Positions 1,818 to 63,321 of a stretch of 64,000 nucleotides of DNA are shown here, piece after piece. Location: NCBI GenBank assembly GCA_963971425.1, contig OZ020520.1, positions 26,626,724 through 26,690,723 of the forward strand, read 5' to 3'. Position 1 is the stretch's first letter. Every line of letters starts with the position of its first letter. Below the pieces are notes generated by a model. That model was not told where the DNA came from. It did no database searches and saw nothing but the letters and a program-made list of their open reading frames with translations. Origin of the DNA: Bryoerythrophyllum caledonicum (taxonomy: Eukaryota > Streptophyta > Bryopsida > Pottiales > Pottiaceae). A program made the translations under genes and the position numbers.

Positions 1818-1867
1818 GGGGAATGCTATTTTGTGAGCAGTGAGCGGTGAGCGGTGAGCAGTGAGCA
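1818..1867 (+). repeat. Left terminal inverted repeat of MULE copy 1
   Basis: The sequence holds GCTATTTTGTGAGCAG and then GTGAGCGGTGAGCGGTGAGC-type tandem units. The reverse complement of 15868-15919 has the same core. A motif close to TATGGCCGTGGAT follows at about 1952 and recurs inside the other ends of this family. Confidence 0.75.
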
Positions 1868-2718
1868 GAAATAATGGGGTTTAGAGAAAAAAAAAGTGAG
1901 TTTTAAAACAAGTTTGTGTGCTGAAGACATTTTTTTAGCACACAAGAGGGTGTATGGCCGTGGATCATTTGATGCTATATTGAGTATGATGGTTAAAAAT
2001 AAAAGGATGACTTGCTGTAGTTTCATAAAATACCCTATGTTCGTGGATGAAAGGCTTCGCATTCTCATTATTAGAGTAATCCACAATTTGGTGTGTTCGC
2101 ATAATGTATAGTATACTTGAATGTTGATTTAAAGGGTTGGAATTTTGGATCTAGAGTTTAGGGTTTACGAAATGAAGATTGTATCAATATTTTCTAGTTT
2201 TACTAAGCCCTACAAAAACTACGTCTTCATGATTATCTATGCATATTTCTAATGAGATTTTCCAACCCTTTTTAGTATTGAAAAATTCATGTATCCATTT
2301 GCTCATTATATAACAAAATCGTGGATTTTACATCAAATGTATTTTTGTATGTATGGTTTACGGTACAAACAATATAGTGTATGTCGTTCAGTGTACATTT
2401 TATAATCCGACCTTGCCTTGAATATGCTACTAAATTCAGATGCATTACTCAATGACAGACTAGTTGACTAATCTATCTGACAGTTTCATATGCAGTTCCA
2501 AATTGCCATAAGTTTAAAGTTGTGATTGATGTGGTACATTATTTTGTGTCTAGATAGATTAGAAGATGGTAGCAAAATAAGAGGCATGTTTCAATTTAAA
2601 CTCGAATGGATACAATTAGAATGTTTAGGGTTTAGAGTATTCAGTTTGGATTGGCTTTAGTTGGAATGGCAAATAAGATCTTACTGAAGGAGAAATTGAC
2701 AATGACTACAAAGAACAA
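1868..2718. other. Subterminal MULE DNA, no gene recognised
   Basis: AT-rich DNA between the left terminal repeat and the 3' end of the ParB/methyltransferase-like gene. Short open frames on both strands have no exon signals or recognisable domains. It contains the family subterminal motif (about 1952 and a second degenerate copy near 2030). Confidence 0.5.
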
Positions 2719-5700
2719 CTACTCCGTGTCATCTGAACTACCCTCGCTTCCATTACCAACCTCTGCCTCTACCTCCACATAACGGAATACATCTTTGTGA
2801 TACCTCTCTCGCCGACGTGTTGGTGGAGGAGATTTCATAGTTGATTGTATCTCCGCAGTTCTCTTTGTCCAGATAGGTAAAGAGAAGGTAGAATCTGGAG
2901 ATGACAATAGCGGCAGAGCTCTGCAAAGAAACAGAGTAACAATGAGGTGCAAAGTTGATATTGATAACGTACAACGATTTTGAAATGAAACCAAAAAATC
3001 TTGAACTTGGGTTGAACTTACGTACAAGAAGGACTACGACTGCTTTTTTGCTTCTTCTGTGCTGGTTTCCCTTGAGTACGTCGCAAGTTCTTCCTCCTCT
3101 CCACTACCAATTCCGTGGCTGACTTTGGAATTAGCGGTGCGAGCAATGACTGGAAAATCTTTGAGTCTTCTTCGAAGGCCAAGACATGGAGGCCCATTGA
3201 TTGACACACCCGAATAGTTGGACCTAGGTAGTACATATCAATAGAGAAGAAAAATTAGAAGTGAATAATAAAAATAAATTAGTTTATGGCATACATAAAG
3301 GAATGCTTACCTGTAGAGGCATTCCAATCTAAGACAATATCCCCACTTCTTGTGAGGGATTCAAGAATGGTCTTCATGAGATCAACCGCTTTCTCACGAG
3401 CTCCTCGCCATGGTGAGTCCCCGTGCATGAGCTGTGAAGCAACGTTCACCGGATTGAACAAGATGTCGAGCTCAACAAGTGGAGAGCGAACTGAGAATTT
3501 CGAGACGATGGGAGTGTCACGAACAAATAGCTGAACACAAAATCTTGTCCCCTGCGAAAGAAACAATATATATAATTATGGATTAGATACACCAAAAAGA
3601 AGCTTAAGACTAAAGCTAATAATTATCAAAAAATGCTATAGAGTACTTACTGTCGCAGAGGGATCTCGAGGCAAAGCTAAAGGCAGCTCGTTCAATGCCC
3701 ACCAATCGATGAGTAGCTTGAAGTCGTATGTAGAAGCACATTCATCAATTTCAAGTTGTAGATCTCTATCATTTGGATGAAGCAGAAGCAAAGCAGCGTT
3801 GTCATAAAGATAAGTGTCAGCAAACTCAAAAATAGTATCAATATAATTATCTGGCCTCGAATTCCACGAAGGAATGGCATCAACAGATTGAGAGATCCGA
3901 GGTACCGGTAAATTTTCTGGAATGTCAGCCACAATTAGATCCAATCCAGTGTGTTTGCAACTATCATTGGAAACTTCCCACGTTCTACCTGCACCAACCT
4001 GCAAGCAAGAAATCCAATGGGTGTAAACAAATGCAGTTCAGTGTAATGGAGGGAATGCGATAAACAAATAAGAATAACAAAGACTAACCTTTGAAATGAA
4101 CTGATGTAGTTGCTCCCATAGTTGGGGTGGGCCTCTTGCCTTCGAGAGAGGCTGCATGATAGAGAAGAGTGATATATTTTTGATGAAACACTCTGATGAG
4201 ACAACTGGCAACGGAGCAACGGAAGACTCAGAAAACTGAAATTGTCGTTGCTTGCGCTGTTGGACTTCCATCCTTGTAACTTCAACTAGGCTGGAACCAG
4301 CGGCTTGAGAGGATGCCACAATTGGAGGAGAATTCCATGCCAAGACCTCGTTTCTAGTCATACCTGTTGGATCAGGCATCAAGGAAAGATTTAAGGTGTC
4401 TCTCTCAGCAAGGGCAGCTACAACTGCTGCTTCAATCTCAGCCTTCTTCGCAGCCTCCGCATCTCTGATGAGCTTTTCCTTGTCAGCTTTCGAAAGCCGC
4501 TTCTTCTTACCGGAGGTCTCCTCTTGAGCTAACACCGGTGGGGATGAAGACTGCTCTACAATTTCGAACTCCGGCTCCCCTAGTGGAGATGAAACATGCA
4601 GTATTGAAACCTCTGTAAGACCTTGAAATAGCTCCTTCTCCGCATCCGGAACAAAATTCGCGGAGCATTCCAAGTACCATCCACCACCATGTAAAACTTG
4701 AGTGGAATACCTCTTCTTCTGAACCTCTGTGAAGATGGACAAGTCTGATGAAGGCTGAATCCAAGTTGAAAGAAATGAAGGACATAGTGGTTGCTGAAGC
4801 ACGTTCTTTGGTATCAGCTCCCTTACAATGTACCTGTAGAAATAAATTTTGAGTAAATTAAGCCACTCAAAGTCGAAATATATTTGAACTAAAATAAAAG
4901 AGTATAGAATACAAGAGACAAACCTGTATAGAAGCCGTTTAATGGCGAGGTCAGCTCCAGGCAACTCATCGAACTTTGTATTCTTCTGAAATGGTGGTTT
5001 CAAACCTGGATGCACAATAACCATGAATGCCTTCTCCCATAATATCATGCGCCATTTTTCCACATACTCGGAGGGCTTTTCAATACCAGACGAAGCGTCC
5101 CAGTTCACTGAAATCGTGCCCGTTGCACAAATTTTGTCAAAATGGGCGATGAATTTGTCCTCCAACTGGTATCAGAAATTACAAAAGTTAGACCTCCTAC
5201 TTATTACTCAAGATAAAAAGACTTCAAGTGACATGAAAATGAACTCAAGGTGTACCTGAGCCCAAAATGTTGCACGATTGAGAAAGGAATCAAGTGCGCC
5301 ATCTTTAAACTGCGTAGCTGGAAAGCGGAAAGCTGACCGAACCATTGAAGGAGAGTTCCAGAAATGCAACCACCTAGCTTTGAAACGAGGCTCCACCGCG
5401 GCGGTTGCCACCTTTTGTAACTTCTCGATGGTCATTTCTGTCTTCTTGAAATGACTGAAATGGAAATTGATCTGCAGAAAATCAAAAATTCAAAATCAAA
5501 TAACTGTAGAACGAAGTAAACGATTGTTAAGTTTACGAAATTAAAGAATAGAGAACACACAACAATACAACACACAATAGCATAGAAACTCTACCTCATT
5601 AATGAAGTCCTTGCCGTTCTTGGGATTGGCGACTGCAAGGTATTTCTGAAAGTCTTTGCTCTTGATTGACTTGACGATGTTTGCTGCAGCATCGCTCATG

Positions 5701-8700
5701 ACCCTCCACACTCCTTTTGCACTTCTATCCTCCGACGTGGTCTTCTTCTCATAATCAATTGCCGCCTCATCAGATGCGCGAGCAATATCTTGCTGCAATC
5801 ATAACAAAATTAGTTTGATTAAGAAAAAAAACTAAAAATTGGTTTCAATGCTCGTAAAAATAAATGTGTATGAAGTGCCATCAATACCCGGTATAAGAAC
5901 GATATAAAAACATCAACCGTTAACGGAAACCATGCTGCACGGGACTGCCGCACTTTCAAGCACGTCTTGAATTCCTCCGACGTCAAAAGATCCTTGAAAT
6001 CTTCCAACCTGAGCCCACCATAATACCGAATGCGTTGAAGTTTTGCTGGAAGGCTGGTCTTCACAAAATCATTATGGGTTGACCTGTAAAATCATACGTA
6101 TTGGATTAGTTCTTTAAAGACTCCAATTTCATACAAGATGTCAAATTATGCATGGCTAAAAGGATAAATGTTAGAGAATGTACCAATTCACGTCGTGCAT
6201 GTAGTTGAGTAGCACCGATATCCGTCCGGTCGGGTTCAGTACAATGCATTGAACAACATAATGCCAATGAGGGTCGTCGCAATACTGTTCTGAAATAAAA
6301 CGCCACCACGCGTTGAACCTGTGATTTCCGTCCCAGACAAAAAACATTTTGCCACTAAATGCAGCAAACTCTGGATTAGACTTCAACATCTCCTCAAACT
6401 TCTCATTTGCTGCAGTCCAATGTGCATCCCACGTTGACATGATCTGAGAGGTAACATCGCGAGTTAGCTCTCGGTCATCATAGATAGAGATGTAGAATGC
6501 ACGATCTCCATCAATGTAGCCTCCCTCAAAGCGTTTCTGCAAAGCACAGACGTCAATTTCTTGAATTGGCCGCACTCGAGGTAGGGCAATCATCCTACAA
6601 AGAGGCACGTGAAATAGAGCCTTCGTAACGCGCATGTTCTCTAGGACTGTCACAAAATTGGACTTCTGATGAAGTCGTCTAGCTCTTTCGCCCTCAGGCG
6701 AACTTATCAATCCATCCGGGCACTTTGGTGACGAATCCTCAGAGTCGGTCGTTGGAACGTTCTACAATACATGAATCATATTAGTTAGGAGATATATAAC
6801 AATGGGAGATAATATGCATGCATGGGAATCTAAACGAAGCAAACCTGAATATCCGGGCTGTCAACTGGATCCTTGCCGTCTGGAGTGAATTCTTGATCTT
6901 CCTAACTCAAGCAAATACTATAGAATTTAGAAAAAATGTTTCTTCAAGTTAGAAATCTCTATTTCAAATTAAAGCAACTTCATGAACAAAAAGCCATTGT
7001 AAATTTCACTGAAATTGAGTAGGTTTAAAGTCTTCGAAGGAATACCTCGGCATTTGGTGCTGAAGGAAATGGTGGTGAACTTTCCACCATGTCGTCCCTT
7101 GTGTTTATCTACAAAAGGAAATATAAGTAAATGAAAATAAATAGAAGCGTTCCTGACTAAACTCAAGCAAGTGCACAAGCTCTTAAACGCTGCGGTGGGA
7201 GGCCTCGCATACGAGGCCTGAAGATAATTGAAGAATCCGGTACTACAAGTTGTCGAGTATCTAAGAGAAATTTTCAACGAATCCGGTCGAACAAGCTGTT
7301 CTGGCTTAAATGGGCAAAAACGTATGAACAAGAATGTATGAAGAAGAGTAAACAAGTATGAACGTGCTGCAATCGCGAAGAAATATGAGCAAAACCAATG
7401 TATGATCACGACTCAAACGAGGTCAACGAAGTATGATCATGACTCAAACGAGGTCAACGGTGGCTCGTCATGAGCGAGACCATGGAATAGGTGATGAGAA
7501 TATGAAGCACTTAAATGCTGCCGAGGGAGGCCTCGCATACGAGGCCTGGTGTATTTTCTGCAACCCGGTCCTACAGAGCCAAGAGAAGATCAAAATCAAG
7601 ACTGACCTACCCGGAACCCAGTCCTACACTGCCGACAGATGATCAGAATCGGAACTGACCCACGAGGCCTCGTATACGAGGCCTTCCTAAACCGACACAA
7701 ATTTGGTCCTTCACAGGAACACTTTCGTCATCAAGATCGGGACTACTGCACTCACAATAAACATGAGCACATTGTTCTTTAAGCAGCCAAGGCAACCCTC
7801 GTATACGAGGCCTGCAGGTAATGACAAGAATCATATGTTGAGATTGAACATTTACTCGAAAACTGACAAAGAAGCAGAGGGCGGACATGTACGACATACA
7901 CTGCCACGCATGTAATGCGAGGCCTGCAGGATTTCACAAGTATGAACGTCCTACATGACTCATGAACGAGAGAGTCGAGACTGTTTCACTACAAATAATG
8001 AGTTGCGGATGGACTAATAAAGCTGCCGAGGGAGGAAGTGTAGGATTTAGACTGCTGTGACGAATATGGAAACGAACTTTATTCGTATCCATGCACACGG
8101 TCCAAATGGCTAACGAGGGAGGCCTCGCATGCGAGGCCTGCAGGATGTTCCACGGCTCAGGTACCTCATGACTGCAGACTGTCAGAATCGAAACTGCCTC
8201 ACTGGAAAAAACAAGTTCCAATCGAACTAATCAAGATGCTGATGGAGGAAATCTCGGACCTACACCGCTGTGAAGTGTTACTGTTCAGCGTCGCATTTAA
8301 GTCAACGACGATCTAAATGCAGTAATCGTCACCAGGTTATTCACCGCTGTGGTAGGCCTCGCATACGAGGCTTACAGTTGTATTTTATTTTTGGTCCTAC
8401 ATTCTTGCTAGCCGTCCCACTAAAGTCATCATGGACCGTGAAATAGAATGCACATGAACTAGAATGCAAATGCTATAGAATGCACATGACCTACAATAGT
8501 CGACTGCAATAGTCGAATGCATGACCTACAATATGCATTAGAATGCACATGAACTAGAATGCATGAACTATAATGCAACGAACTGAACTGGAATGCATTA
8601 ACTAGAATCCAACGAACTGAACTAGAATGCATGAACTAGAATGCATCAACTAGAATGCATCAACTAGAGTGCATCAACTAGAATAGCCACATTCGGCCCT

Positions 8701-10815
8701 ACAAGTCAATCACGAGCATATCTATAACGAGCAGGTCCTCACTGAAACTTAACAGGAATTGACCTACGACATGACCACATTTTTCGCATGAACTGCAAAT
8801 CAAACTCTGCGCTATCAACTGATCTACATGCTAAAGGGAACAAAGGAGTGAGGCCTCGTAAGCGAGGATTGTATTTACAAGTCGAAAACGGTCCTAAGTT
8901 GATGCAATGTCGACGACGAACTTCTCGAATTTCTAAAATCGACTTATCAAATATATGATCCAGCAGTGCTATCCTACCTGTCTAGACTCACGTACATGCT
9001 AATGACAGCTGGCGAAGAAGGCCTCGTGAACGAGGTCTTCCAATGACTTCAACTCTTGGTTCTCTCGCAAGGAAAACGTTGAACTGATTTTTCCGTTTAA
9101 AAACTGATTTTTCTCACACCTGAAAAACTTGGACTTCCATCCTTGTAACTAAATCCGAAGACACACTGAAGTCGACAAGTCACTTTGGTTCACTCACACT
9201 AAAGTCAAGAAGTCACAAACACCAAAAGAGGCGATGCTCACACGGCTGCTACAGAAAAACCGGATGATATGAAGACAAGTTTATTTGCGGTCCAAATGAC
9301 CTTCAGTAAATCTTCAGTAAACTCTCTTTGAAATCACTGGTACTAAAGTACGTAAATCTTCTGGAACCCCTCTTCGTAAACTTTACAGAAAACCCTAATC
9401 AAAAACAGATTTGTACTTTCAAAGACATTTCAACAAAGAAGCCTCGCTGTGAACACTCACATTAAGCGAAATCGGGAGAACACTGAAAACGCAATCGACA
9501 CGACATCCCCACCCCAAACCCAAAATCCATTACAATCCTACTTGAATCATATCAACATACCTCAGTGCTTGTTATTGGTGAGCTCGTTCCCGCCATCCCC
9601 TTGCTCCCAGGTTCAGATCCCTGCCACACCCACAGAATACGTTAGTCAGTGCACAAAAAATTCAATGAAACCTTTGTGTCCTAACAAATGCTATGTCGCT
9701 GAGAGTTCAGGTGGCGCAGGTCTATGTGCAAGCAGTGAGCAAATGAGGATCTTGCTCGGATCGTTTTAGGGTAATGGTACTCGACGATCAACTGTTGGAT
9801 GATTAAGTCATCCACTGATTTTCATCCGAACTGTTCTTGCAAGTTGATGACCGCTGAACATTGGAACAAAATTATACTATAGCATGATGCATTTGATTCA
9901 TGATAGACAACCAAACCCTTTGGCATCGTGTTCACAATCTTTAAGTCCTACGGAGCCGATTCTCACGAAAGATTGTGTCCGAACAATGCATCAGTAATTT
10001 ATAACGTTGCAACTTGTTCAAGCAAAAATCTTAAGGATGATATTTAATACTTATATATAATGGTACTTGGGAACTTGAAACAGTATGCTTTTCAAATATT
10101 TCTTTCACAAATACCACATGCTTCATTATGACAACCGATTTTGAACTTGTGACACACTAACTTGGTGGCAATTAGTTAAAATAATAAATGCTATCTTCAT
10201 TACCCAACTTCAGGTGATTGGTGAAATGATAATAGGGCAATGTTCTATGAGCAACAAATGAGAATTGTAACTGTATCTGTATGAAACAAGATGACAAATG
10301 CTTACCTCTCTTCTTGATGGGGTTGATTGTGGAGATGTTGTTTTCCGCGGTATGTTGTTACAATGTCCTCCACTTTCTCCAGCAACTTCTGCCTGACAAA
10401 CCCATATCAAAAATGTTCTAATTAACAAAGTTAAATAATTTGGGCTTCACAAAGTGTATACTAAGTTGGCATGATATATAATTGATGCAATACTGAGAGC
10501 CAACTTTTGCGCACACATGCAATAGGACCTTCATGTAAATCTCAGCAACAAAGCACTTACCATCATCGGAGACGATGACTCGCCTTCATTGTCTTCAATG
10601 TTCGGAAGTTTGCAATCACTATCACGCTCGGAAGAGTTAAATGACAACACCTTCGCTGTTTCAGATATGTCTACCTGAGCAATACATGCCTTGGGCTTTT
10701 CCATCCTAGATCTCTGCAGCTGCTTACGACTCGAAAAGAGAATACCTCTCCTCCTTCGTCTCTTCTTCCTCTCACTCACTTGAACAAGGCAGTCGTTGCT
10801 ACAAATCCTAGACAT
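2719..10815 (-). CDS. ParB/DGNHR-like and N6/N4-methyltransferase-like protein, 15 exons
   Basis: Minus-strand exons: 10815-10561, 10392-10306, 9620-9561, 7108-7046, 6901-6845, 6761-6184, 6083-5888, 5792-5595, 5471-5256, 5165-4924, 4833-4089, 3998-3651, 3551-3311, 3223-3022, 2920-2719. Every junction is GT-AG, phases agree throughout, and the sum is 3,690 nt (1,229 residues, no internal stop). Residues 16-23 are a run of K/R, a likely nuclear signal. Residues 318-322 are DGNHR, the signature of ParB/DGQHR-type nuclease-fold domains. A charged, probably coiled-coil stretch lies at about 760-800. Near the C-terminus, DIPE (924-927) sits where N6/N4 methyltransferases have DPPY, and SGDIVLDWNASTG (1084-1096) resembles the AdoMet-binding GDLVLDPFxGSGT motif, so the fold looks like a methyltransferase with an altered active site. 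ParB-methylase fusions are known in bacteria and phages. It is divergent from the MULE transposase. The role is unknown; I infer DNA binding or self-recognition. The C-terminus is acidic. Confidence 0.75.
7402..7459. repeat. Tandem duplication of about 29 bp
   Basis: ATGATCACGACTCAAACGAG and its following bases occur twice in direct succession with one or two changes. The duplication is intronic, at the edge of the palindrome array. Confidence 0.7.
8440..8680. repeat. Minisatellite of GAATGCATGAACTA units
   Basis: Degenerate tandem units of 13-18 bp built on GAATGCATGAACTA or GAATGCACATGAACTA, inside the large intron and between palindrome copies. No coding content. Confidence 0.75.
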
Positions 10816-11470
10816 TTGAGAATTGCCAAAGCTCCTAGCCTACGACTTAACTAAATCGGAAATGATTCATTTGAAGATGTTGCTCATTAAAATCAACCGA
10901 AATCCAATGTCGACACCACAATTCATTAATTTAATCCCCATAGCAACTATATTGCAATAAGTATTTCTAGAAATTGCTAATCGTAGCTACCTATCTGTCA
11001 TCCGATGGAATTTACCTCATTTTTTGCTTCGCATTCACTTATATAATGAATAACATAACCTCTATGAGCTATTTAAACCTATATTAGATCCGCAACAACT
11101 ACTAAGTACACAATGATTTCAAATGTGGAGCGCAGTATATTAACCTCCTCTACTTAATTATAACATAAGTGCGTTTTTGAATTTACTATTGTTCGCCTTC
11201 TCCTCATAGCATTGCACTAAAAATTCATCACTTAGTTCTATTTCATGTCCACAAGGCCACCATTTTGAAATCTGTCAGTTTCCGTGAACTATTCGTTGTA
11301 CATCTTGCTTAAACCGGATCTAGACTTGCCTTCGTTATCAAATATCGTGCCCATGCTTTTCATCCAAAATCGGTCAGTCCGAAATCCCTGGTTGTTTTAG
11401 AATATATATCAAATTACATCTCTTACTCTAAATCTCTCATTCCATTGTATTGCTTCTACAGTTCTTCGTA
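10816..11470. promoter_or_regulatory. Bidirectional intergenic region of the MULE copy 1
   Basis: This 655 bp spacer separates the start codons of two divergent genes, so it should hold both promoters. It is AT-rich; TATATATC-like sequence occurs at about 11402, some 70 bp before the transposase ATG. MULE copy 4 has a comparable 610 bp spacer (62712-63321). I see no palindrome copies in it. Confidence 0.5.
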
Positions 11471-14400
11471 ATGGCCTCTGCTGATTTAGGTAGTGTAGGT
11501 ACCGTTGTGATTCATGGTCAGGGTGAAGAAATCCCAATTACGTTTCGTGTAGCGTATGATGGTCATTGCTCAGTTACAGCGAGTAGACTTTCTTCCAGGT
11601 TTCAGTTGTTGGAGGATTCAGTTTATGTTGATGAAGAAGTACGTGATCCAGAGTCTGGTGTTATCACTCATACCATAGGTCAAGATGCCATCAATTCCAA
11701 CGAAGGAAAATCCTGGCTACTCAAGCCTGGAACTTTTAGAGTGTACGGTGTTAGACGAACTACTGACAGTTTATCCACCCAAATTTTGGGATCTCGAGTT
11801 TCTATAACTAGTGATCAGCAAACAAGCGTCCCTCGCAAAGTCAAAGTTGAGCCAGGTTGTGAAATTATTCACATTTTGAGTGATGACTCGGATACGGACA
11901 CCCCAATTCTCGCTGATAAAGAGAAACCAGATAGTTATCCATCTCTTGTACGTTTAGATTCACATGTTCGTCAATCCTCTCATGACAGTCGACCCGTTCG
12001 TGTGAAACCTCCTCTTCCACCATCAACATCACCTTCGCCATCTATAGTAGAATGTATACGGAAACTTGGTGCCAGAAAGGGGTCAAAGTCTATATTGTCT
12101 AGAGTTGATTTTTCAGAAGTCCCAATTTCTACTGTGGATTGCTTGCCTCCAAGCTTTGATGGAGATTTCATTTTTGTTTTGCCTCCAGCTTCACTATTGT
12201 CTTCGCAGTCACAAGCCAAGCTACTGCAGGGCATGGACAAGCGTCATGATGGTCATGCGTGGACTCGTACAGTCACAACGCACATTATGAATGACTTCGG
12301 TCTCTCTTTTAGAATGTCCTCATGCCTAGGTCACTTGAAGTGCGTCAATGACCAATGTAACTACCTTGATAGAGTTCATAGACCTACTCCAACCAATGAG
12401 ACAGAGTGGGATGGAGCATCGTATTTAACATTTGTCCCTGATTCAAAACCTCCGAAAGGCTCAACTGTTGTTTGCAAAGTGTATCAGACTCCTCCTTCAT
12501 GTTTAAACGTCTGCTCTGCCAAAATCTACTATGTCTTAAGTCCACCTCCGATGTCTCGTGCTTGTGTTCATATTGGTACTCACTTACATCCGGTAAAGAT
12601 TGGTGTTGACAGAGAGGCTGAGGAACAATTGACGACCCTCCTCAGCGAGCAAGTTGAGAAAACTCCGTCCGCTACAACATCTACTATAGTGTTGGAGGCC
12701 GGGAAGGAATTTGTTGCGGAATTGTTGCTGAATCCAGAAGGTGCCTCTGAACGGAGTCTGTCAAAAGAGGAATTGGTGCATGTTCTTGAGAGAAGCAAGA
12801 ACTTAACATCTCCAAATCTGCGAAACAAGGTCTCATCCTTCCGTTATCTCAGACGCTACGGAGTCATGGACAGCATAACAAAGCTTAGAGGATCGAGCAA
12901 ATGGGCGTATTTGCAAAACAACATGTTTCCTGGACAAGGAGAAGCGTCTGACAAGGTATTTGTTTTTAAAATGTTTGAAGTTGGACCCGGCAGTGGTGTC
13001 GATCTTGTCATGCGGATGTAAACTGGCGGTGATTTACACAATGCTTGGATGATGTTTGACCATGTCAAGCGTGTGAAGGGCTGGACCACAATGGCTTGTC
13101 ATGTCTATGATGCTTCTTATTGTCGTGTCATGACAATAGCAGTTTGTGACATGCAATCTGAGGACGTTCATGCCCAAGTTGTATTTTGGAAAAACTTGAA
13201 TGCCGTTGTAGGGCGACATGGCATTTCCGAGCCCAATTTCCAGGGATTTATGGCGGACAGTGCCCAAGCTAATTGGAATGCGGTGAGGATCACTTACGGT
13301 TTTGGCGATGCAAAGATTCGAATGGACGACCGGGAACGTACATGTTTATTCCAGTGGACACAATCTCTTGAAAAGCACACAAAGGCGGATATTCGACCCG
13401 ATCTCCAAGAGCAGCATCGTCGTCTATGTAAGCAATACAAGAATGCAAATTCTCTAAAAGACGCGCAGTCTAAATACCTTGCCATCAGATCTTGGTGGTT
13501 ATCATCAGGCGCTACAACCGAGGAAGGCCTTGTTCGTCTGGACCTATGGCTTGCTTTTTGGCACTTTCGATACCGCCAATGGGGTGGATTTATGGAGCTT
13601 GTAAGTGTATATTTATATTCTATGCATAATTCTATCTTACTTCCAGATTAATTTATCTTCTTGCATATGATTTGATGTAATCCATTACTTATAATTTGAT
13701 ATGTCATCTATTCTCTAATAGCTTGATACATGTGGCAGAATCTCAGTGAAGAACTCGTGGAAATGCCCTCTTGTAACCTTGCAGAGACAGTGCACAACAA
13801 ATGGCTCCAACAGTCGGGAAAGAGGGGAAATGATTTATATGTAGCGACAGTGGACGACTACGTTAGAGCATTCACGCAAGTGCTTGCATACTATCAGTTC
13901 TCCAAAGGCGACAGAGCAGGCACGGGCCCAAGTAGAGACGATCTTCGTGTGCGCCTTGCCCAACGCAATGTCAAGACTACAGGAGATCCAAAGAAACTCC
14001 ATGCGGCCTTAGAGGTAATGCCAGGTGCTTCAAAATTTTGTACGAGAGAGCCCCATTTTGAAGGTGAAGAGGTCTTCATGTCCTTGAAACGAAGGACAAA
14101 CATCCCCATTGGATCAGAGTATGACTCTCATCGCCCAGACAAGATCAGCATGTCTCGGCCGGCAAAGAAAGTACGTTGCGATGGAGGCAGTTCTGTTGGT
14201 CATACACGTGACTGTGAGTCCCATTCTGTAGCAGAGATTCCCCGAGTTGAAGAGACGATGACGGCCACACCAATTCCGCAACATGCGAAGGTGGTCCTTG
14301 AGACGACTTGTAATGAGAAGGAGTGGCACATAGCGCGGCTTCCAAGGACTTCAGCAAAAGCTTGCTTTGCACAACAAGCTATAACAAAGAAAAAATGTGT

Positions 14401-15181
14401 TGCCAAGATTGTCCAATACAACAAATCTACAGCTGCTCCTACTTACACGGGAATGATGACCCATTACAAGAAGAACAAGGTTGAGCAGATGCAGTTTTTC
14501 TTTTGCAACGACGATATTGAACGTTGTGTGAAGGGCACAAGGCGCAAGTGGGTTGTGGCTAAACCACATGTGCCCGAAGTTTGGCCTGTCAAGCTTGGTA
14601 CGAACCTTACTCAACAAGAAGTCTATGCTCTAGAGCATGCCGGATTTCAATTGGCAGAACGCCCTATACTAGCACCACATGAATTGTTTGGTGATTTTAC
14701 CGAACTTATCAATTTTGAGGAGTACCCAGCACCAGTTTCCCCTAACGATTACCCAAAGCGCAGGTTCGGGAAGAACATTCGGCGCAACTCGAAGGCCCCA
14801 TCTTTGAAACACTCCAACAGCTATGCATCCGCCCTTTCAGTTAACGGTAAAGTTCAAAAGGTCACCATGCTTCCTTCTCCAGGGTTGGGTTCAATTATTA
14901 CATTTGAATCTATCCAAGGATCCAAGGCATCGTCATATCTAATCACTATTGGACAATTTCCGAGCTGCGATTGTCCGTTTTTCAAAGATATGGAAATCAA
15001 GTCCCTAGGGAAGCGTGGGCAATGGGTAAATTGCAAACATATGTACCATATTTTTACTCAAATATGTCATCTTCTTCCTGAGGTAGATCAATTTATCCAC
15101 GCACCGAGTTTTAGCTACAATGAAATCAAGCGCGTGTTGGAAGTTCTTCTACCCAAGTGCCCCCCTATTGTAACGGTTTGA
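11471..15181 (+). pseudogene. MULE-type transposase with SWIM zinc finger (copy 1)
   Basis: Exon 1 is 11471-13600 and exon 2 is 13739-15181 (donor GTAAGT, acceptor GGCAG), 1,191 codons in one frame. One in-frame TAA at 13019-13021 replaces a codon that is CAA in copy 4, so this copy is one substitution from open. The start MAS is shared with copy 4, which supports the ATG at 11471. The N-terminal third is variable and acidic. The core has FDHVKR (first catalytic Asp region), MADSAQANW (second Asp region) and RTCLFQW, where MULE transposases carry a C-x2-H-like motif. The C-terminus has CDCPFFKD then CKHMYHIF, a SWIM-type C-x-C...C-x-H zinc finger. It acts on the element ends. The clade looks unlike classic MuDR, and I assign it to MULE by motif order only. 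Confidence 0.8.
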
Positions 15182-15867
15182 CATTTGGATATACTGTATC
15201 TTTCATTTCATATTCAATTGAAACACTAGTGTGACTAAAAGGGCCACTAGTACATATTGCGATACGTACTTCGTCTACAGTTTCATCTTACCATGGTTAC
15301 TTCTTCTACAAGTTCATCTTACCATTGTATGGACTTCGTAAACGGATTATCTAGGATGCTAGGCCTTTTGGGTACACTATAATTTTCTACTATGGCTCTT
15401 TGATTAAAATACTTGACTCCAGAAATAGCCCATAAATCTTAATATGAGGCTCACCCTAAACCCTAATAAAATCCTTTGTGAATTACTATTCCTTGCATTT
15501 CAGTTCAAAGTGAAATTAATGAGTATGAAAGTGAAGAAGATAACACTATGAAACAATTCTTGTCAAGATATCAGGATGTTAGGGATAGTCTTTACTGATT
15601 GAATAAATGTATAATAAGAACATTTTCAATTCAAAACGTTGCTAATAAAAGATTTTCAAATCATCCCTAAATCCTCCTCTCCTTCTGAATGTAAAAATAC
15701 AGTTACAACAAATTCCATATCCACGGTTATAGGGTAATACGTTTTCCACATTAAAAAATCAGACAAGTTTGCAAATAGTACACATTTATTTATATTTTTA
15801 GCCATTTAAAAAAAATCATACCAATATGATTAAGTTCTCAAGAAATTTCTACCTAAATCCAATATTT
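15182..15867. other. 3' subterminal MULE DNA, no gene recognised
   Basis: AT-rich, non-coding. It carries TATCCACGGTTATAGGGTAA at about 15719, the same subterminal motif (inverted) that follows the left end and occurs at other ends of the family. The distance from transposase stop to element end (738 bp) is close to that in copy 4 (668 bp). Confidence 0.55.
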
Positions 15868-15919
15868 ATCTGCTCACTGCTCACCGCTCATCGCTTTCTG
15901 CTCACAAAATAGCTTCGCT
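15868..15919 (-). repeat. Right terminal inverted repeat of MULE copy 1
   Basis: CTGCTCACTGCTCACCGCTC with further GCTCAC-like units and CACAAAATAGCTTCGCT is the inverse of the left end. The duplication CAGCATCGGGC follows at 15920-15930. Confidence 0.75.
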
Positions 15920-15949
15920 CAGCATCGGGCATGTTGGAGAGGGTGGCAT

Positions 15950-29982: not shown

Positions 29983-31417
29983 CTACACTAAACATGGCTT
30001 TTAGTATAATGGTAGGAATAGTGTAGTTTCCCTAGTACACTATTTGTGAACAAGTTGGCAATTAGTGTTAGCCGCCATTGTCATGAATATTATCCCTCAA
30101 TTGTCCACCTACCCTAGTACCCTTAGTATTTGCCCCCAATCAACCACCTACCCTAGCACATGAATTTGTTAAACAAGTTGATAAATAGTGTTTGCCCCAA
30201 TCAACCACCTACTGGCCGCCATGTATTGATTCTCCCCGTCTCATCCTCATCCTCATGTCCTAATCCTCCCATTCCCAACTATTCCCATTCATATCTCTAG
30301 CATTCCTTGAAACTTTTCATGAACATCTAATGAATATTTAATGTTTATTTATATATTTAAAAAATATTTAAAGTACATTTGTATATTTAATGTATATTTG
30401 TATATTAAAAGAATACCTATTGTATATTTATATATATAATATATTTGTATATTTAAAGAATATTTAGTATATATGTGTATATTCAAATAATATTCAATGT
30501 ATATTTTTATATTCAAATAATATATTTGAATATTTAAATATTATTTAGTATATATTTGAATATTTAAATAATATATTTGAATATTTAAATAATATTTAGT
30601 ATATATTTGAATATTTAAATAATATTTAATGTATATTTGTATATTTCAATAATATTTAATGTATATTTGTATATTTCAATAATATTTAATGTATATTTGT
30701 ATCTTTAAATCATAATTAATGAATATTTCAAGAATTTTTAATGAGTTTAAAATGTATATTTATGAGAGTTTTATGTATATTTTTATATTGAATGAATATT
30801 TTAAAAATATTTAAGGAACATTCAATAAATTTAAAGTGTATATGTAATGTGTATTTATATATTTAATGAATTAATAATGAATGTTTAATATATATTTAGT
30901 GTATATTGAAGGATTATCAAATGAATATTTGATGAATATTAGTTGTATATTTATTGTGTATTTATTGTATATTTATAATTATTTCCTTTTCCAATATTCC
31001 TTTCTTTTCTCACTTTCCTTCTAAATTGAAGTTCCTACTTTTCCAATCTTGTCCTTGTAGTTTCATTTTCCCTCTGTATGTATATTTTTCTTTGTCTAGT
31101 TTTTGGGATTTTCCTTTTGCTCCATATCTACGTTCTATTTTTTCCAATATTTGTTTTGCAAATTCTTGTTTTTCTTCATGCACTTAAAATCTTCTTTACT
31201 TTTGATGCTCAAAATGTACACATAATCATTTTCTGGTTTCATACACTAAATGTCCACCACTAAAAAACCATATATTCCACTATTTACTCAAATTGACATT
31301 TAGTGTAGTAGTTGACATTTAGTGTATAGTTTTGTCACTACACTAATTATAAACTTTACAATTAGTGTATGGGTTTGTATTTAGTGTCCACTACACTAAA
31401 AGCCATCTTCAGTGTAG
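29983..31417. mobile_element. Non-autonomous DNA element with CTACACTRAARATGGC ends (copy 1)
   Basis: CTACACTAAACATGGCTTTT at 29983 is matched by its inverse, AAAAGCCATCTTCAGTGTAG, ending at 31417. Inside each end, further ACTAAATG/CATTTAGTGTAG blocks form subterminal repeats. The core (about 30330-30960) is extremely AT-rich, made of degenerate ATATTTGAATATTTAAATAA units. No transposase is present and I see no clear target duplication. A diverged second copy is at about 43143-44282 inside the 21 kb element. Confidence 0.75.
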
Positions 31418-43142: not shown

Positions 43143-44282
43143 TTTTCTAGTACACTATTTGTCAACAAGTTGGCAACTAGTTTTAGCCACCATTGTCCTG
43201 AATATTATCCCTCATTCGTTCACCTACTACAGTTCATTTCGTAATAGCCCTCTATCAAAACTCTTCCCTAGCACACAATTTTGATACTTGATAAATAGTA
43301 TAAGCTCAAAGTCTTTAGCCTACCGGTCGCCATGCATTCATTCTTCGTCTCATCTTCAACCTCAATTTCTTATCCTCTTATCCACAACTATTCTCATTCC
43401 CATCTCTTGCATTTTCTTTACATTATTTAATATTATCTAATGAATATTTAATGTGTAATCAAATATTTAGCCAATAACTAATGACTTTGTAATGATTTTT
43501 TAGAGGATAATTCATGTATATTGGTATATCTGTAACTTTTATGCACAATTAAAGAATATTGGAATTTTATTTATTGAATGTTGGAAGTTTTAAAAGTATA
43601 TTTATGATAGTTTATTAATATTTATATATTTAATGATTATTTAAAGAGTATTTAATGCACTGTTAATGAATAGTTAATGAATAGTGCATAAATTTCTAAT
43701 GTAAAATTAATGTGTATTTGAATATTTAATGAGTATTTAATTAATATTTACTGAATATGTAATGCACATTGAATGCGTATTATGTGATGGATATCTAATG
43801 AGTATTTTACTTGTATTCCTATATTTATTGTATGTTTAAGTTTTTTCCTTTTCCAATATTCCATTCTTTTCTCATTTTCGTTTCCAGAAGAATGTTCTTA
43901 TATTTCCAGTCTTCTACTTGTAGTTTCATTTTCCCTCCATATTTTACATTCTACTTTGTCCAAATTTTTATATTTTCCTTTTGCTCCATACCTACGTCCG
44001 CTTATTTCCAAGCTCTTTCTTGCAAATTCTTCCTTTTCTACATGCACTCAACCCTTCTTTACTATGATGCTCAAGATGTAATCAAATCATGATTAAGGTT
44101 CCCTACAGTAATTGTCGACAAGTAAAAACTTTATGTTCTACTATTTACTAGGATTGACATTTAGTGTAGTAGTTGGCATTTAGTGTAATATAGTTTTGTC
44201 ACTACACTTATTGTAAATTTTACAATTACTGTGTGCATTCCTATTTAGTTTCCACTTCTCTAGAAGCCATCTTCTGTATACT
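43143..44282. mobile_element. CTACACT-family non-autonomous element (copy 2)
   Basis: CTAGTACACTATTTGTCAAC near 43148 and the block from about 44090 to 44280 (GACATTTAGTGTAGTAGTTG) match the left and right portions of the element at 29983-31417. The AT-rich core is also kept. The outermost left end is lost and the right end decayed, so this copy is older. Confidence 0.65.
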
Positions 44283-53114: not shown

Positions 53115-53729
53115 ACGGGTAATCTCACTTGATGTGGTAAAAAGGCGACTTTACCACATGGAAAATTACCACATGGTAATTTGACATGGTAAAACGCAGT
53201 GTTTTTACACATGGTAAATTGCGGGGTTTTCTCACATGGTAAATTGTGGGGTTTTCTCACATGGTAAATTGCAGGGTTCTCTCACATGGTAATTCCTCCT
53301 TTTGAATAATATTTGTCATTAACCAAGTCTTCAAATTCATAATTAGACCAAAATCACATTAACATGCATTTTATATTTGAACACGAAAGACCTACAAGGT
53401 AGGGCATCCAACTCCAACTCCGAAATAGCATGTCAAGAGTAATTGGAAAGTCGAAAGTAAATGGAACATATCTCCGCACCATAATATACTTGTCCTTTCA
53501 CTTGCCCAGGACAAACCTTATAGGATATACAAGAAACCATGGTTTACAATCAAAGTATTAAAAGTGCAGCTTTTACCATATGCTTCAAATGGTAAAACCT
53601 TCTGAAAGTAGTAAAAACAATGTTTTTGACTCAAGGAATGAAATTTACCGCATTGGCAGTGAATAGACCTATTAGAGTAGCAGCTTTTATCATGTCCTTC
53701 AAGTGGTAACACCTCCCGGGACCCTTGTG
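53115..53729. mobile_element. MITE copy 1, right piece
   Basis: It begins with the second ACGG, continues GGTAATCTCACTTGATGTGG and ends CCCGGGACCCTTGTG. It is nearly identical, inverted, to 54243-54854. Repeated CACATGGTAAATTG units (about 53160-53290) are its internal motif. It completes the element whose other end is 31683-31764. Confidence 0.8.
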
Positions 53730-53816
53730 CGACCGCTCAAGTACCGCCCCTTCAGCGTCTCGGAGCACCGCAAGTGCAGAATGAGGCGCCTTTGCACTCC
53801 GCTCGGCACTTGCTGA
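53730..53816 (+). pseudogene. 2-oxoglutarate/Fe(II) dioxygenase last exon, 3' half
   Basis: After the MITE end the frame reads PLKYRPFSVSEHRKCRMRR and stops at TGA 53814-53816. PL-x-Y-x-PF-x-x-x-E-x-R is the typical C-terminal sequence of plant dioxygenases. With the MITE and one CGA removed it follows TVPPTIVTEDR in frame, which supports a single exon split by insertion. Confidence 0.7.
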
Positions 53817-54242
53817 TCAACCCAGAATCCACCTAGAACTCAATTCAAGTTCACCCCAGGCCGCAGCATTTACATCTCATGTGGTCTTGTTTAAACTTTT
53901 TGGAGCGTAAGTACTACAACACCGTCGTGATGCTAACAGGAGGATGTTCGTGCGCATCCAATCGTTGCATGTCCACAGTATGGATTTGAATCAAGGGGTG
54001 CATGGCTCTACTTTGACGCTATAAGCTGATAGCGTCGATTTGTGATTGGATTGAATCGCCTGCTCTGGTACTGGTAATTAGGAGCATGGGTCCTCGGTTG
54101 AGGATTTGAATTGGAAGCGTTGATTCAAGCGTTCACCTGACCACATTTGCGACTGCGGTTTCCAGGTTTTCCTATGAAAGTATCATGCTGGCCACCTCGA
54201 GAGTTCATTTGAAGTCATTTATCTATGGCATTGTTGTTACTG
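53817..54242. other. Dioxygenase 3' flank between two inverted MITEs
   Basis: GC-richer unique sequence, probably old 3' UTR or downstream host DNA. It forms the loop between the two nearly identical inverted MITE copies. Confidence 0.45.
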
Positions 54243-54933
54243 ACAAGGGTCCCGGGAGGTGTTACCACTTGAAGGACATGATAAAAGCTGCTCTTCTAAT
54301 AGGTCTATTCACTGCCAATGTGGTAAATTTCATTCCTTGAGTCAAAAACATTGTTTTTACTACTTTCAGAAGGTTTTACCATTTGAAGCATATGGTAAAA
54401 GCTGCACTTTTAATACTTTGATTGTAAACCATGGTTTCTTGTATATCCTATAAGGTTTGTCCTGGGCAAGTGAAAGGACAAGTATATTATGGTGCGGAGA
54501 TATGTTCCATTTACTTTCAACTTTCCAATTACTCTTGACATGCTATTTCGGAGTTGGAGTTGGATGCCCTACCTTGTAGGTCTTTCGTGTTCAAATATAA
54601 AATGCATGTTAATGTGATTTTGGTCTAATTATGAATTTGAAGACTTGGTTAATGACAAATATTATTCAAAAGGAGGAATTACCATGTGAGAAAACCCTGC
54701 AATTTACCATGTGAGAAAACCCCACAATTTACCATGTGAGAAAACCCCGCAATTTACCATGTGTAAAAACACTGCGTTTTACCATGTCAAATTACCATGT
54801 GGTAATTTTCCATGTGGTAAAGTCGCCTTTTTACCACATCAAGTGAGATTACCCATATAGTGTAATATATCTGAAATCAACGTGGTAAAATCAACCATTT
54901 TACCTTGTGGTAATGGCTCCTGGAGCCCCTTGT
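54243..54933. mobile_element. MITE copy 2, 691 bp, inverted relative to copy 1
   Basis: It begins ACAAGGGTCCCGGGAGG and ends in GGAGCCCCTTGT, imperfect terminal inverted repeats of about 25 bp extending into GTTACCAC/GTGGTAA. It has the same length as the reconstituted copy 1. It has no coding capacity. Confidence 0.8.
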
Positions 54934-55409: not shown

Positions 55410-55659
55410 TCAAAAATCATATAATTATTATATTAGAGTAGCATCATCTTGTAGTGATATGAACCTCAAAAATTATATAATATTCATATTTAATGTAGAA
55501 GATTCTTTTATAGCTAGAGTTTGATATTGCATGTGTATTGATAATTTGATATATAAATATATATATAAAATAATAAAGGTTTGTTTACAAATATAATGAT
55601 TGCATATTTCACACCTAGGAATGAATACGTTGTATGTCATAATGTATGTTTTACCCTTG
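55410..55659. other. AT-rich spacer, nothing recognised
   Basis: Short AT-rich stretch between the MULE end and the mariner-like element. Confidence 0.4.
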
Positions 55660-55661
55660 TA

Positions 55662-58338
55662 CAGTAGGGTCCAAGGCAGAATGGCGTTTTTGGTTTCCCA
55701 GTGGAAAAAAATTCAAGTCTGCCCACTTTGAAAGCCTTTAGAGAGATCAAAAATTGGTATTTTACCTTGAAATTTTTACCATGAACCTGAAATCAAGTTG
55801 TTAGAATGCCTACCGAACTTCAAAGCCAAATAATTCACCAAAAAGAAGTTATTCAAAATCTACCAATATAGGTAGCTGTGGAAAAAGTTTCACTCCTACC
55901 AACTTCGACAGCCTCCCAAGAATTGAAAACAAATGTCCTTACTTTGATTTTTTTTTGGTAGAAACAAATTTGTGTTAGTAATATATGGTAAAAATCTCAA
56001 GTCTAAAAGATTAGTAAAAAAAAAGATATTTCCAATCTACCAACATGTGTTATTTTGCGGTATGCTTGTGGAAATCATTTTCACTACAACCAACTTTGAC
56101 ACCCTCCCAATGGCTAAAAAATGGCCCATTTGCCATGAAATTCTTGTCACAAGATAAGCTACATGTTAATGACAAGTGTGACAAAATTCAAGCTGAAAAA
56201 GCTTACACAAAAAAAATAACTCACAATCTACCGACATGTGTAATTGTGAAAAGCAATTTAAGAGCTTGTTGGGAATGTTCATGCTTAGAAGCATGGATAA
56301 TTAGCTTATGGTATGAAATTGTCCACATAATACAGTACCTAAATAGAAATGCTTCTCAAAAAATAAAAAACATCCAAATTTAACTGTGCGCACTTGTCAC
56401 ATCGCAATGAATACACTTGCTAAGAATTTGAATACCACATACGCATGAAGGAGCCTTTGTTCTCTACATCAATGCTTGTTTTGAGAGTTGAATATCACAA
56501 GTGACTTGTAGAATGTGTGATGATTTGAGAGGGCTTATTTGAAAGCAAAGGTATGCACATGGTGATGTGGGAGTAAGAGTATGCACACGAGGGTTCATTT
56601 GAGAGGAAAGGTCTACACATACTGGTTTGGGAGTGAAGGTATGCACAAGCTAATTTGGGAACACATTTTGCACATCAAGGTTGATTTGGGAGGGGAACTT
56701 GTATGGACGTGTGGTTAGGTAGTTCAAATTTTAGATCAAATTCTCAGATTTAAAGTTGTGATTGATGGCTATTCCAGATGAAATTCGTGCACGTATTGTG
56801 GGTTTGAGTGAGGGAGGGAAGAAAGGAGTTGAAATTGCAGCTATTGTTGGAGTCCCTGTTAGAACAGTTCAGAGATTGGTGAAGCAATTTCGAGAAAATG
56901 GAACCTACAAAAGCAAAATGTGTGCCAAAAAATATGGATAAAAACTTAGTGATAGAGATGTCCATTGTATAAAACGTGTTATACAAGCTGATCGTCGCAT
57001 CACGCTCTCTGACGTTACTAATATGTGTCCTACTGAAGTATGTAGAAATACTATTCGAAAGGCTTTACATGATAGTAGCATTCACAGTCGAATTGCAGTC
57101 AAAAAACCTTTTTTGACACCTCGCCACATGTCTCAACGATTGGCTTTTGCTCAAAAGTATTGTCGATGGAGTGCAGAAGAGTGGGAGCAAGTTGTTTGGA
57201 CAGATGAGTCCACTTTTGAAGTTGGAAAAAACTCTAGACAAATTCATGTTTGGAGAACTGTGTATGAGCGCTATGCTTCAAGTTGTATAGTTCCAACTTT
57301 CAAGAGTGGGAGGACTTCTTTGATGATTTAAGGTGCATTATCTGGAGGGCAGAAGTCACAACTTGTTTTTATGCCTAAAGATCGGCGCTCTGCAAAGGAT
57401 TTTGTTGAAGTGGTTTACAATGGGGAGTTGCTTCATTCTATGGAAAAAGTACCACAAGGATTACTCATGGAAGATGGTGCTCGTGTCCATAGAAGAAAAA
57501 TATGTGAAGAATGGAGGCAAGCACACCGTCTAAAGAAGCTTAATTGGCCCGCTAACTCTCCTGATCTCAATCCAATTGAGAATCTTTGGAAGATTTTGAA
57601 AGATGCAGTTCAACATGGTTCAATATGCCCTAAAAATACAAGTGACTTAAGAGTAGTTATTGCAAGAGAGTGGAAGATTATTAGTGGTCAAAAGCTCCTT
57701 CTGCTATGTCATTCTATGCCTACTAGGTTACAAGCAGTGATAGAGGCAAGTGGAGGACATACACGTTGGTAGATTGTGAGTTATTTTTTTTGTGTAAGCT
57801 TTTTCAGCTTGAATTTTGTCACACTTGTCATTAACATGTAGCTTATCTTGTGACAAGAATTTCATGGCAAATGGGCCATTTTTTAGCCATTGGGAGGGTG
57901 TCAAAGTTGGTTGTAGTGAAAATGATTTCCACAAGCATACCGCAAAATAACACATGTTGGTAGATTGGAAATATCTTTTTTTTTACTAATCTTTTAGACT
58001 TGAGATTTTTACCATATATTACTAACACAAATTTGTTTCTACCAAAAAAAAATCAAAGTAAGGACATTTGTTTTCAATTCTTGGGAGGCTGTCGAAGTTG
58101 GTAGGAGTGAAACTTTTTCCACAGCTACCTATATTGGTAGATTTTGAATAACTTCTTTTTGGTGAATTATTTGGCTTTGAAGTTCGGTAGGCATTCTAAC
58201 AACTTGATTTCAGGTTCATGGTAAAAATTTCAAGGTAAAATACCAATTTTTGATCTCTCTAAAGGCTTTCAAAGTGGGCAGACTTGAATTTTTTTCCATT
58301 GGGAAACCAAAAACGCCATTCTGCCTTGGACCCTACTG
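55662..58338. mobile_element. Tc1/mariner-type transposon, 2,677 bp, long inverted repeats
   Basis: Ends CAGTAGGGTCCAAGG... are flanked by TA on both sides (55660-55661 and 58339-58340), the Tc1/mariner target. The terminal inverted repeats are about 573 bp (55662-56234 and 57765-58338) and nearly identical, pointing to recent activity. Each repeat contains three related blocks at about 185 bp spacing, built on ACCAACTTTGACACCCTCCC. A transposase frame with two stops lies between. Confidence 0.9.
56765..57772 (+). pseudogene. Tc1/mariner transposase with two in-frame stops
   Basis: One frame of 336 codons from ATG 56765 to TAG 57770-57772. The N-terminal half has a paired HTH (VGLSEGGKKGVEIAAIVGV then TVQRLVKQF) for binding the inverted repeats. 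The catalytic core has WTDESTFE (first Asp), LMEDGARVH (second Asp) and WPANSPDLNPIENLW, with the third acidic residue (Glu) at DD34E-like spacing. TAA codons at about 56939 and 57329 interrupt it, so this copy cannot make the full protein, although its long inverted repeats look fresh and it may have been moved in trans. The stop codon lies at the inner edge of the right inverted repeat. Confidence 0.9.
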
Positions 58339-58487
58339 TACATCTAAATTCTTTCTCATAGTGTTCATATTTAAAGTACATTTTGGAAACAAAATTTAAT
58401 GAAAACCTCTTATTAGCAAATACAAAATTATCCTACACGTTTGTCAGTTTTGTACATAATGAACCCCTTAAAGACCAATGCATTTCA

Positions 58488-58665
58488 GCGACGCTATCTT
58501 GTGAGCGGTGAGCGGTGAGCAGTGAGCAGAAAATAGTTTGAGAACACCAAAAAATCGCTCTTTTTTAGAAAAAAAAGGGGATTTCCCGGGAAATTAGTGG
58601 TACAACTGTGAAGTTTTGCCTTAAATGATGCAAAATTTTCTAAATTAAGAAAGTACCCTATAGCC
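58488..58665 (+). repeat. Left terminal region of MULE copy 4
   Basis: Terminal GCGACGCTATCTTGTGAGC, then GGTGAGC units, then ACCCTATAGCCGTGGAT at about 58653. The last motif is the family subterminal box also seen at 1952, 15719, 22289 and 55245. Confidence 0.75.
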
Positions 58666-58889
58666 GTGGATACATTGACAATTGAATGTTGTTTTGCATG
58701 TTTTACGCATGTCAAGGAATTATAATCTTTGAGTTTTATTTTTCCGAGGATTACATTTGTGCTTTTATTTAGGATGGCAATTTATAAAACAGAAGCTTCT
58801 GATGAAGTGCTAGAGTATTAGATGTGGAGTAAGATAATTTATTTCTTGAAGCAATAACATAAGAGGTTTCTATAGAAATACCAATGGTC

Positions 58890-59055
58890 AGTAGAAACCT
58901 TAAACTACCGGGTGATGGTAAGAGTTATCCGACTTCTCCAATTGGAAAGGTTTAGGGTTCAAACCACCGTGATCGAAAGGTCCTTCTATCTAGGGGAGCT
59001 GTCGGAAGTTGCTAACAAAACACTTCCGTTGTAAGTTAGGAAAAAAAACTAAAAT
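58890..59055 (+). mobile_element. SINE-like sequence with tRNA B box
   Basis: TGGTAAGAGTTATCCGAC resembles an A box and GGGTTCAAACCACC (about 58956) is a good B box. The segment ends in an A-rich run (GGAAAAAAAACTAAAA). No clear duplication is seen. Confidence 0.5.
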
Positions 59056-59155
59056 AATTAACTAATACGTATAGTCATGTAGTTGGAATATGGACACCAC
59101 ATCAGCTATCTAGACCTCGTCTAGAGTATTAAAAGTTCAGCCGCGACGCACATCA

Positions 59156-62711: not shown

Positions 62712-63321
62712 AAACTCAAACTATTAGCAACAACAAAGTTAGATCGACTATGAAAGATGAGAGGTGTAGAATTGAAAGGAATTAAATACTTTGTCCAATT
62801 GACGAAATGGAGAGCACAATTTTACTTTACTTTAACGGAATAATACATTCTTAGTCTGTCAAAACGACATGTCTACAATCTGACACGTCATGTTTGAACA
62901 AGACAAAGTAGAAACCAATCTAGAGGTCATATTTAGAGTCATCAATAATCATTGTGATATTACTAGCTGTATCCCCTAGGACACCAAGTTAGTGTTAAAG
63001 ATAAATCCAGTTAAGTGTATTGCATGTGGCTGCTGAAGCAATTAATAGAGATGCTATAGCCACAATTAACTTTGAGATTGAAATTCAAATTAAGACTGAC
63101 AACGATTGATAAATTAGTTAGAGATCACCGGGCTATCCCGTTGGCAAGTGCTTGGAATAGTAAAATAGGTCCAAGTAGGGGTAGTATGGGTTCAACCATG
63201 TCTTGCCATATCATACAACCATAATCTTGTAAACATGATCATTGTGACGAAACCAGGACAACTTGCTGAGGATGACAAGCAAGGGTGCCCGTAAGAGAAG
63301 AACAACACACACTCAAATCCT
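62712..63321. promoter_or_regulatory. Bidirectional spacer of MULE copy 4
   Basis: 610 bp between divergent start codons, comparable to 655 bp in copy 1. It includes a SINE-like or tRNA-like stretch at about 63125-63240 (TTGGCAAGTGCTTGG and GGGTTCAACC). Confidence 0.45.

Follow-up and report, generated by a model that had tools for sequence, protein, structure and literature searches.

Genome analysis of Bryoerythrophyllum caledonicum reveals a family of Mutator-like elements (MULEs) in which the transposase gene is accompanied by a divergently oriented second gene, coding for a protein with a ParB-like motif domain and a methyltransferase-fold domain. The copy at the centre of this work (copy A) occupies positions 1818–15919 of the window, i.e. 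the whole stretch of 64,000 nucleotides at C8:26626724-26690723 (contig OZ020520.1) in an assembly of 437 Mb and 894 contigs. It is confirmed as a real two-gene element with paired ends, and the genome-wide occurrence of both genes supports the second gene (gene 2) being a fixed part of the element lineage. On balance, and with some reserve, we favour a reading as a two-gene MULE lineage in which an IS256/MuDR-type transposase is joined by an obligate ParB-like/methyltransferase-fold accessory protein that acts at the element ends, mostly as a binder.

Organization of the element

The sequence GCTATTTTGTGAGC is present exactly at 1825 (+) and at 15913 (-), within the two element ends; with up to two mismatches it is found six times in the window where 0.65 matches are expected, a number reached by none of 100 shuffles. 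Read inward from GCTATT the ends agree with each other at 14/14, 18/20, 37/40 and 48/60 bases, and they are flanked by an 11 bp duplication (CAGCACCGGGC and CAGCATCGGGC) that is identical at 10 of 11 positions and is equalled by one of 400 random right ends. An earlier note on this DNA had reported both ends with their duplication and an intact 15-exon second gene, and both descriptions hold: the gene model has 1229 codons with zero internal stops, and all 14 introns are bounded by GT-AG. Identical exons were returned by a separate spliced aligner, although this was given the same protein and speaks to self-consistency only. The element is organized as follows.

1807–1817, no strand: left target-site duplication CAGCACCGGGC, 11 bp, one mismatch to 15920–15930
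1818–1878, + strand: left terminal inverted repeat, including a tandem array of 7-bp GTGAGC(A/G) units (end pattern, end-to-end match)
2719–10815, - strand: gene 2, 15 exons, 1229 codons, ParB-like motif domain and methyltransferase-fold domain (spliced model)
3022–3998, - strand: exons 12–14 of gene 2, methyltransferase-fold region with D-I-P-E as motif IV and DWNASTG as motif I (PF01555, profile-profile comparison)
6184–6761, - strand: exon 6 of gene 2, ParB-like region, PLCR...FVWDGNHR...LLN.M.D.N (VWDGNH motif)
7109–9560, - strand: the 2452 bp intron 3 of gene 2, in which palindromic GAGGCCTCGYATACGAGGCC units recur (gene model, motif positions)
10816–11470, no strand: divergent promoter region, 655 bp from one start codon to the other (gene models)
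11471–15181, + strand: MULE-type transposase, two exons; ATG at 11471, intron 13601–13738, stop codon 15179–15181
15860–15919, - strand: right terminal inverted repeat (end pattern, end-to-end match)
15920–15930, no strand: right target-site duplication CAGCATCGGGC, paired with 1807–1817

The transposase gene of this copy contains a single in-frame TAA at 13019–13021 and is therefore not intact, a defect that went unmentioned when it was first described as a MULE transposase. Its assignment stands in the form MULE-like, from the duplications and the predicted fold. An RNase H-like core is predicted, together with a ubiquitin-like N-terminus and a GCM-like zinc domain. The closest match to this fold, at modest scores, is ISCth4, a transposase of the IS256 family, along with a zinc domain of the GCM type; a CxC..CxH motif at the C-terminus was judged by eye only. 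A Pfam search with four pieces of the transposase gave no family at E ≤ 1, so no MULE or SWIM profile was matched. Duplications of 10–11 bp with at most one mismatch are present at 11 of the 13 elements bounded by terminal inverted repeats (TIRs), with equally good ones in 0–3 of 400 controls. The elements have features of MULE/MuDR transposons, namely an 8–11 bp duplication, terminal inverted repeats, and a transposase of the MuDR/IS256 kind with a zinc domain.

Gene 2 is a fixed part of the element

A 14-base end pattern has 638 matches per strand in the genome, compared with 0 and 1 for a reversed control pattern. End pairs were taken from about 100 of the 1276 TIR matches, all on contig C1, and among the matches listed there are nine inverted pairs separated by 12–16.6 kb. 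All nine enclose both genes in divergent orientation, in one case (span F) as fragments only. Together with copy A and a second element on C8 (B2), both genes are found in 11 of 11 TIR-bounded spans of this size that were read whole; the earlier note had proposed a genome search for further copies with both genes between such ends. Two additional end pairs, at a distance of 6.7–6.8 kb, delimit internally deleted copies in which remnants of both genes survive.

Genome searches with transposase exon 1 and gene-2 exon 6 identified at least 83 and at least 150 scored loci, respectively, and the counts that follow apply among the matches listed. An exon 6 on the opposite strand lies 4.3–13.5 kb away on the 5′ side of 55 of the 83 transposase loci, and just one of the 83 has any exon 6 at all within 20 kb on the 3′ side; conversely, 54/150 exon-6 loci have a transposase partner. 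Random placement of partners gives a mean of 0.4 and a maximum of 3 pairings in 200 trials, which leaves a chance neighbourhood, i.e. insertion of a MULE next to an unrelated gene that is itself repetitive, with a negligible probability; in its favour there is nothing more than the single window copy. Chance adjacency was rejected on this genome-wide pairing together with the co-divergence and selection described below.

Some counts speak against a fixed association. No partner is listed for 28/83 transposase loci and 96/150 exon-6 loci, of which two each were checked; a shorter pairing using the full-length gene-2 list joins only 18/38; and at least five end pairs, noted by eye, are merely 191–224 bp apart and too short for either gene. 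In all four of the loci without a listed partner that were read (2 of 28 and 2 of 96) the missing gene is in its divergent place. Because both genes are present in the whole spans, at the paired loci and at all four re-read loci, gene 2 is taken to be a stable part of the element, as had been suggested. Neither a regular absence of gene 2 from the copies (2/2 re-read transposase loci are paired) nor a gene 2 living mostly outside the elements (2/2 re-read exon-6 loci are paired, with ends not located at every locus) was found.

The end pairs 191–224 bp apart on C1 (e.g. 5081748-5081950) resemble miniature inverted-repeat transposable elements.

Divergence and selection

At least five diverged lineages in this one genome share the two-gene architecture, as read from gene-2 models built by spliced alignment. 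Copies E and I belong with A, their gene 2 being ~80% identical to that of A, whereas in a lineage comprising C, B2, D, G, H, J and K it is 27–29% identical to A. Both genes are also present in lineage M, where the one copy read is 45% identical to A over the ParB exon block, and in lineage N, with 32–41% in the ParB exon and 27% overall (one locus read whole). Two additional loci, L054 and L056, are 37–43% identical to A in the ParB exon. In copies D and J both genes are stop-free over the modelled stretch.

Gene 2 is under purifying selection and diverges in step with the transposase. Transposase and gene-2 protein identities are correlated across 11 elements (Mantel r 0.939, reached in 0/5000 permutations), and the ratio of nonsynonymous to synonymous substitution rates (dN/dS, NG86 method) for gene 2 is 0.18 between A and E (1214 codons, dS 0.63), 0.18 between A and I, 0.22 between E and I, and 0.20 between C and K; the N-terminal model exons are uncertain and may inflate these values. 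Divided by part, the A–E ratio is 0.09 in the ParB-like region, 0.10 in the middle, and 0.20 in the methyltransferase-like region; the tail and the N-terminus have higher values of 0.33 and 0.45, respectively.

These data bear on a capture of the Pack-MULE type, in which a host gene was picked up by chance in some copies. MULEs do capture genes, as described in PMC6446971, but gene 2 is present in every lineage examined, has diverged to 27–29% overall identity between the main lineages, and has done so under selection and in step with the transposase, such that capture is highly improbable here. It was rejected on the genome-wide pairing, co-divergence and selection; gene 2 does not have the character of a recent host-gene fragment that the rest of the lineage lacks.

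Seven transposase places of lineage M, on several contigs (e.g. C1:33134717-33136219), have the same score (E 9.5e-184) and a stop-free frame of 730 residues, which suggests a very recent burst of this young lineage.

The methyltransferase-like region

Homology of the gene-2 C-terminus to permuted N6/N4 DNA methyltransferases is firmly supported by profile comparisons of the predicted proteins, in agreement with the earlier description of this region as methyltransferase-like. PF01555 matches residues 1067–1120 of copy A with E 3e-5 and 24.5 bits, below the curated cut-off of 26.7, and is matched in 3/3 aligned gene-2 members; in lineage N the cut-off is exceeded (30.8 bits), with 8 genome places of this lineage above it. 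When eight gene-2 copies were compared by hhalign with four phage methylases and one plasmid methylase, the probability was 97% (E 3.5e-11, score 78.6), and 60 column shuffles peak at 20.3. A global profile alignment places D[IV]PE of gene 2 over DPPY of the methylases, and motif IV precedes motif I, as in the permuted N6/N4 enzymes.

The catalytic motif IV of N6/N4 amino-methyltransferases is (D/N/S)PP(Y/F/W), and the motif I that binds S-adenosylmethionine is FxGxG. Gene 2 departs from the first of these, with D[IV]PE in the ten copies A, E, I, C, B2, D, H, J, K and M, which represent three of the four lineages where motif IV is readable (copies F and G are outside this count), and DQPF in the fourth, lineage N. 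Motif I reads xASTG rather than FxGxG in the copies readable there, except for xTSIG in K and NASIG in the lineage N copy at locus L036, and in every copy readable to motif I a serine replaces the first glycine. A protein database contains eight environmental relatives with 43–66% identity to the methyltransferase exon of gene 2 in copy D, and the family therefore extends beyond this host; in all eight, glutamate occupies the position of the motif IV aromatic residue (seven read D-x-P-E and P0097 reads D-V-H-E). Pattern searches of IMG/VR found no member of the gene-2 family.

Because D[IV]PE is present in three of four lineages and xASTG stands in place of FxGxG, most members would be binders and not active methylases, and we infer that most gene-2 lineages have probably lost methylase chemistry. 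Were gene 2 to code for an active methyltransferase, modifying N6 of adenine or N4 of cytosine in the element that carries it, the clear N6/N4 homology over motifs X and I and the DQPF and GIEED of lineage N would be readily explained, and such an activity has been suggested in print for a protein of this kind in Ectocarpus (in the available part of PMC12477816). Glutamate for the catalytic aromatic residue throughout the ten copies and their eight environmental relatives, and serine for the first glycine of FxGxG, make an active writer unlikely.

The ParB-like region

All eight aligned members share a layout of PLCR, a strand, an insert of ~45 residues, VWDGNH(R) and LxxMxDxN. The ParB/Srx signature is DGxHR or GxxR following a beta strand, and a motif of the DGxHR type is present as VWDGNH in 8/8 members from four lineages, with the next arginine in 6/8 (it is lost in C and D); the aspartate is lost in copy B2. 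A PHROG search gave one ParB family at E 0.6 for one of the eight members, and hhalign of the whole region with ten ParB proteins gave a probability of 0.8%. With the insert removed, and two rows mis-cut, the score is 17.7, where 60 controls reach at most 18.8; with corrected rows it is 18.6, at a probability of 1.6%, where 100 controls reach at most 18.4; DGNHR of gene 2 is placed over DGFHR of ParB, at scores at the level of the shuffled controls. The ParB-like label of the earlier note is retained for the VWDGNH motif and its published parallels, but finds no significant match in any profile library.

Conservation of VWDGNH across lineages, and of the adjacent arginine in most members, would also fit a ParB-type nicking nuclease or an NTP-driven clamp working in strand transfer or end synapsis, comparable to mudrB in integration, and DNA nicking is reported for a bacterial ParB-methylase (in the available part of PMC5512222). 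We consider this somewhat less likely again than an active methyltransferase, as a ParB fold is not established for gene 2, the activity is putative, and the arginine is lost in C and D.

A proposed role at the element ends

In the favoured reading, i.e. an obligate accessory protein acting at the ends mostly as a binder, gene 2 would be read divergently from a promoter region of 0.6–0.7 kb shared with the transposase. Its predicted product, in which a long middle region separates a ParB-like domain from a permuted N6/N4 methyltransferase fold, would be a putative DNA-binding accessory factor with a ParB-methylase of bacterial or phage origin as its ancestor. This protein may bind the ends of its own element, most probably where GTGAGC(A/G) units are arrayed in tandem within the inverted repeats; once bound, it would help to build the transposition complex and/or prevent silencing of the element in the manner of VANC. 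A more specific scenario is that a bacterial-type ParB-methylase was fixed in a whole MULE clade and then mostly turned from writer to reader, with a dead methyltransferase and a ParB clamp on the 7-bp arrays protecting or mobilising the element; this we offer only tentatively, and regard as rather doubtful.

Several observations weigh against the favoured reading. Lineage N retains the aromatic residue of motif IV (DQPF) along with a GIEED loop, so that some members may still be active. The predicted structure of the methyltransferase region is unusable, with a mean predicted local distance difference test score of 42. Pfam, NCBIfam and PDB profile searches with the eight aligned members recovered no ParB family, and PF02195 has zero matches in the genome. 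Neither the ends of lineage N nor the left end of the M copy were located, and among the 13 TIR-bounded elements tested B2 and I have no convincing target-site duplication. Three closer pairs have dN/dS ratios of 0.43–0.65 (C–B2 and D–H, each with a stop-bearing copy, and D–J, at 0.43, without one), and H–J has a ratio of 0.98 at a dS of 0.004, which is uninformative.

Comparison with known systems

The closest parallel is in Ectocarpus, where the available part of PMC12477816 (2025) describes a ParB-like and N4/N6 methyltransferase protein of 1104 residues encoded opposite the transposase of the 21.5 kb element Sola1-1_Ec32, and cites green- and red-algal cases (Iyer 2011; Petroll 2025). Likened by description, the proteins share a size of ~1100–1230 residues, a ParB-like part (here by motif only) joined to an amino-methyltransferase, and an antisense position relative to the transposase within a large DNA transposon. 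They differ in that the host element is a Sola1 transposon there (with other algal transposons among the cases cited) and a MULE here, and in that the authors suggest active modification of its own element by the Sola1 accessory protein, whereas gene 2 has altered catalytic motifs. A further difference is that the present work shows conservation over many lineages within a single genome.

Among MULEs, the survey PMC6446971 lists as second open reading frames (ORFs) mudrB (integration), mutB, and vanB/vanC (vanC in anti-silencing), among others. These resemble gene 2 as accessory second genes of a MULE and are set apart by description, none being described as ParB- or methyltransferase-like; the main text of the survey contains neither 'ParB' nor 'methyltransferase'. 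A literature search, with most subscription journals outside its coverage, found no paper joining ParB, Mutator-like, transposon and methyltransferase. The earlier claim that no such MULE has been described therefore stands for the literature searched, but the same kind of protein is published for other transposon superfamilies, as in the Ectocarpus Sola1 element. What is new here is the MULE host, the obligate coupling across at least five lineages, and the altered catalytic motifs.

Should the favoured reading be true, ParB-methyltransferase accessory proteins would have been taken up by at least one more transposon superfamily and retained there until identity fell below 30%, and would therefore be a real class of eukaryotic transposon helper and no oddity. 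The gene pairs and repeat-array ends provide a testable system for silencing evasion or end assembly by a transposon. As judged from residue changes, the altered motifs would argue against self-methylation, the simplest published hypothesis. A bacterial comparison is offered by the ParB-methylase Bce_0392, which we take to be shorter than gene 2. By description it is likewise a fusion of ParB to an adenine methylase, and differs in being bacterial and in its reported nicking of DNA (PMC5512222, available part).

Copy 4 and other features of the window

A related element, copy 4, lies at the right end of the window.

58493–64000, transposase on the - strand: copy 4, with five stops in the transposase model and a second gene truncated where a further member of the family begins, at ~64890

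The interrupting element is B2 (starting at about window coordinate 64890 on C8), which retains its two ends and the two genes, each gene interrupted by stops, and is oriented opposite to copy 4. The expectation that the second gene of copy 4 would continue beyond 64000 is not borne out: the ParB/methyltransferase exons there belong to B2, and copy 4 is truncated. An ORF at 63322 reaching a GTAAGT at 63472 is consistent with the exon 1 described in the earlier note, its likeness to other first exons being judged by eye only.

Within intron 3 of gene 2, between 7199 and 8860, two half-patterns of the GAGGCCTCGYATACGAGGCC units match 5 and 7 times. Elsewhere in the window, self-comparison identified inverted repeats at 53117–54854 and 55658–58342, whose arms measure 612 bp (99.2%) and 582 bp (99.5%), respectively, and which are possibly young foldback- or TIR-type elements. 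A dispersed repeat of ~610 bp, 77.6% identical, is present at 30806–31410 and 43669–44274, with internal tandem structure at ~30320–30985. Outside the window, ORFs adjoining the lineage N element (L037, 410–3712) resemble protein kinases, by eye only.

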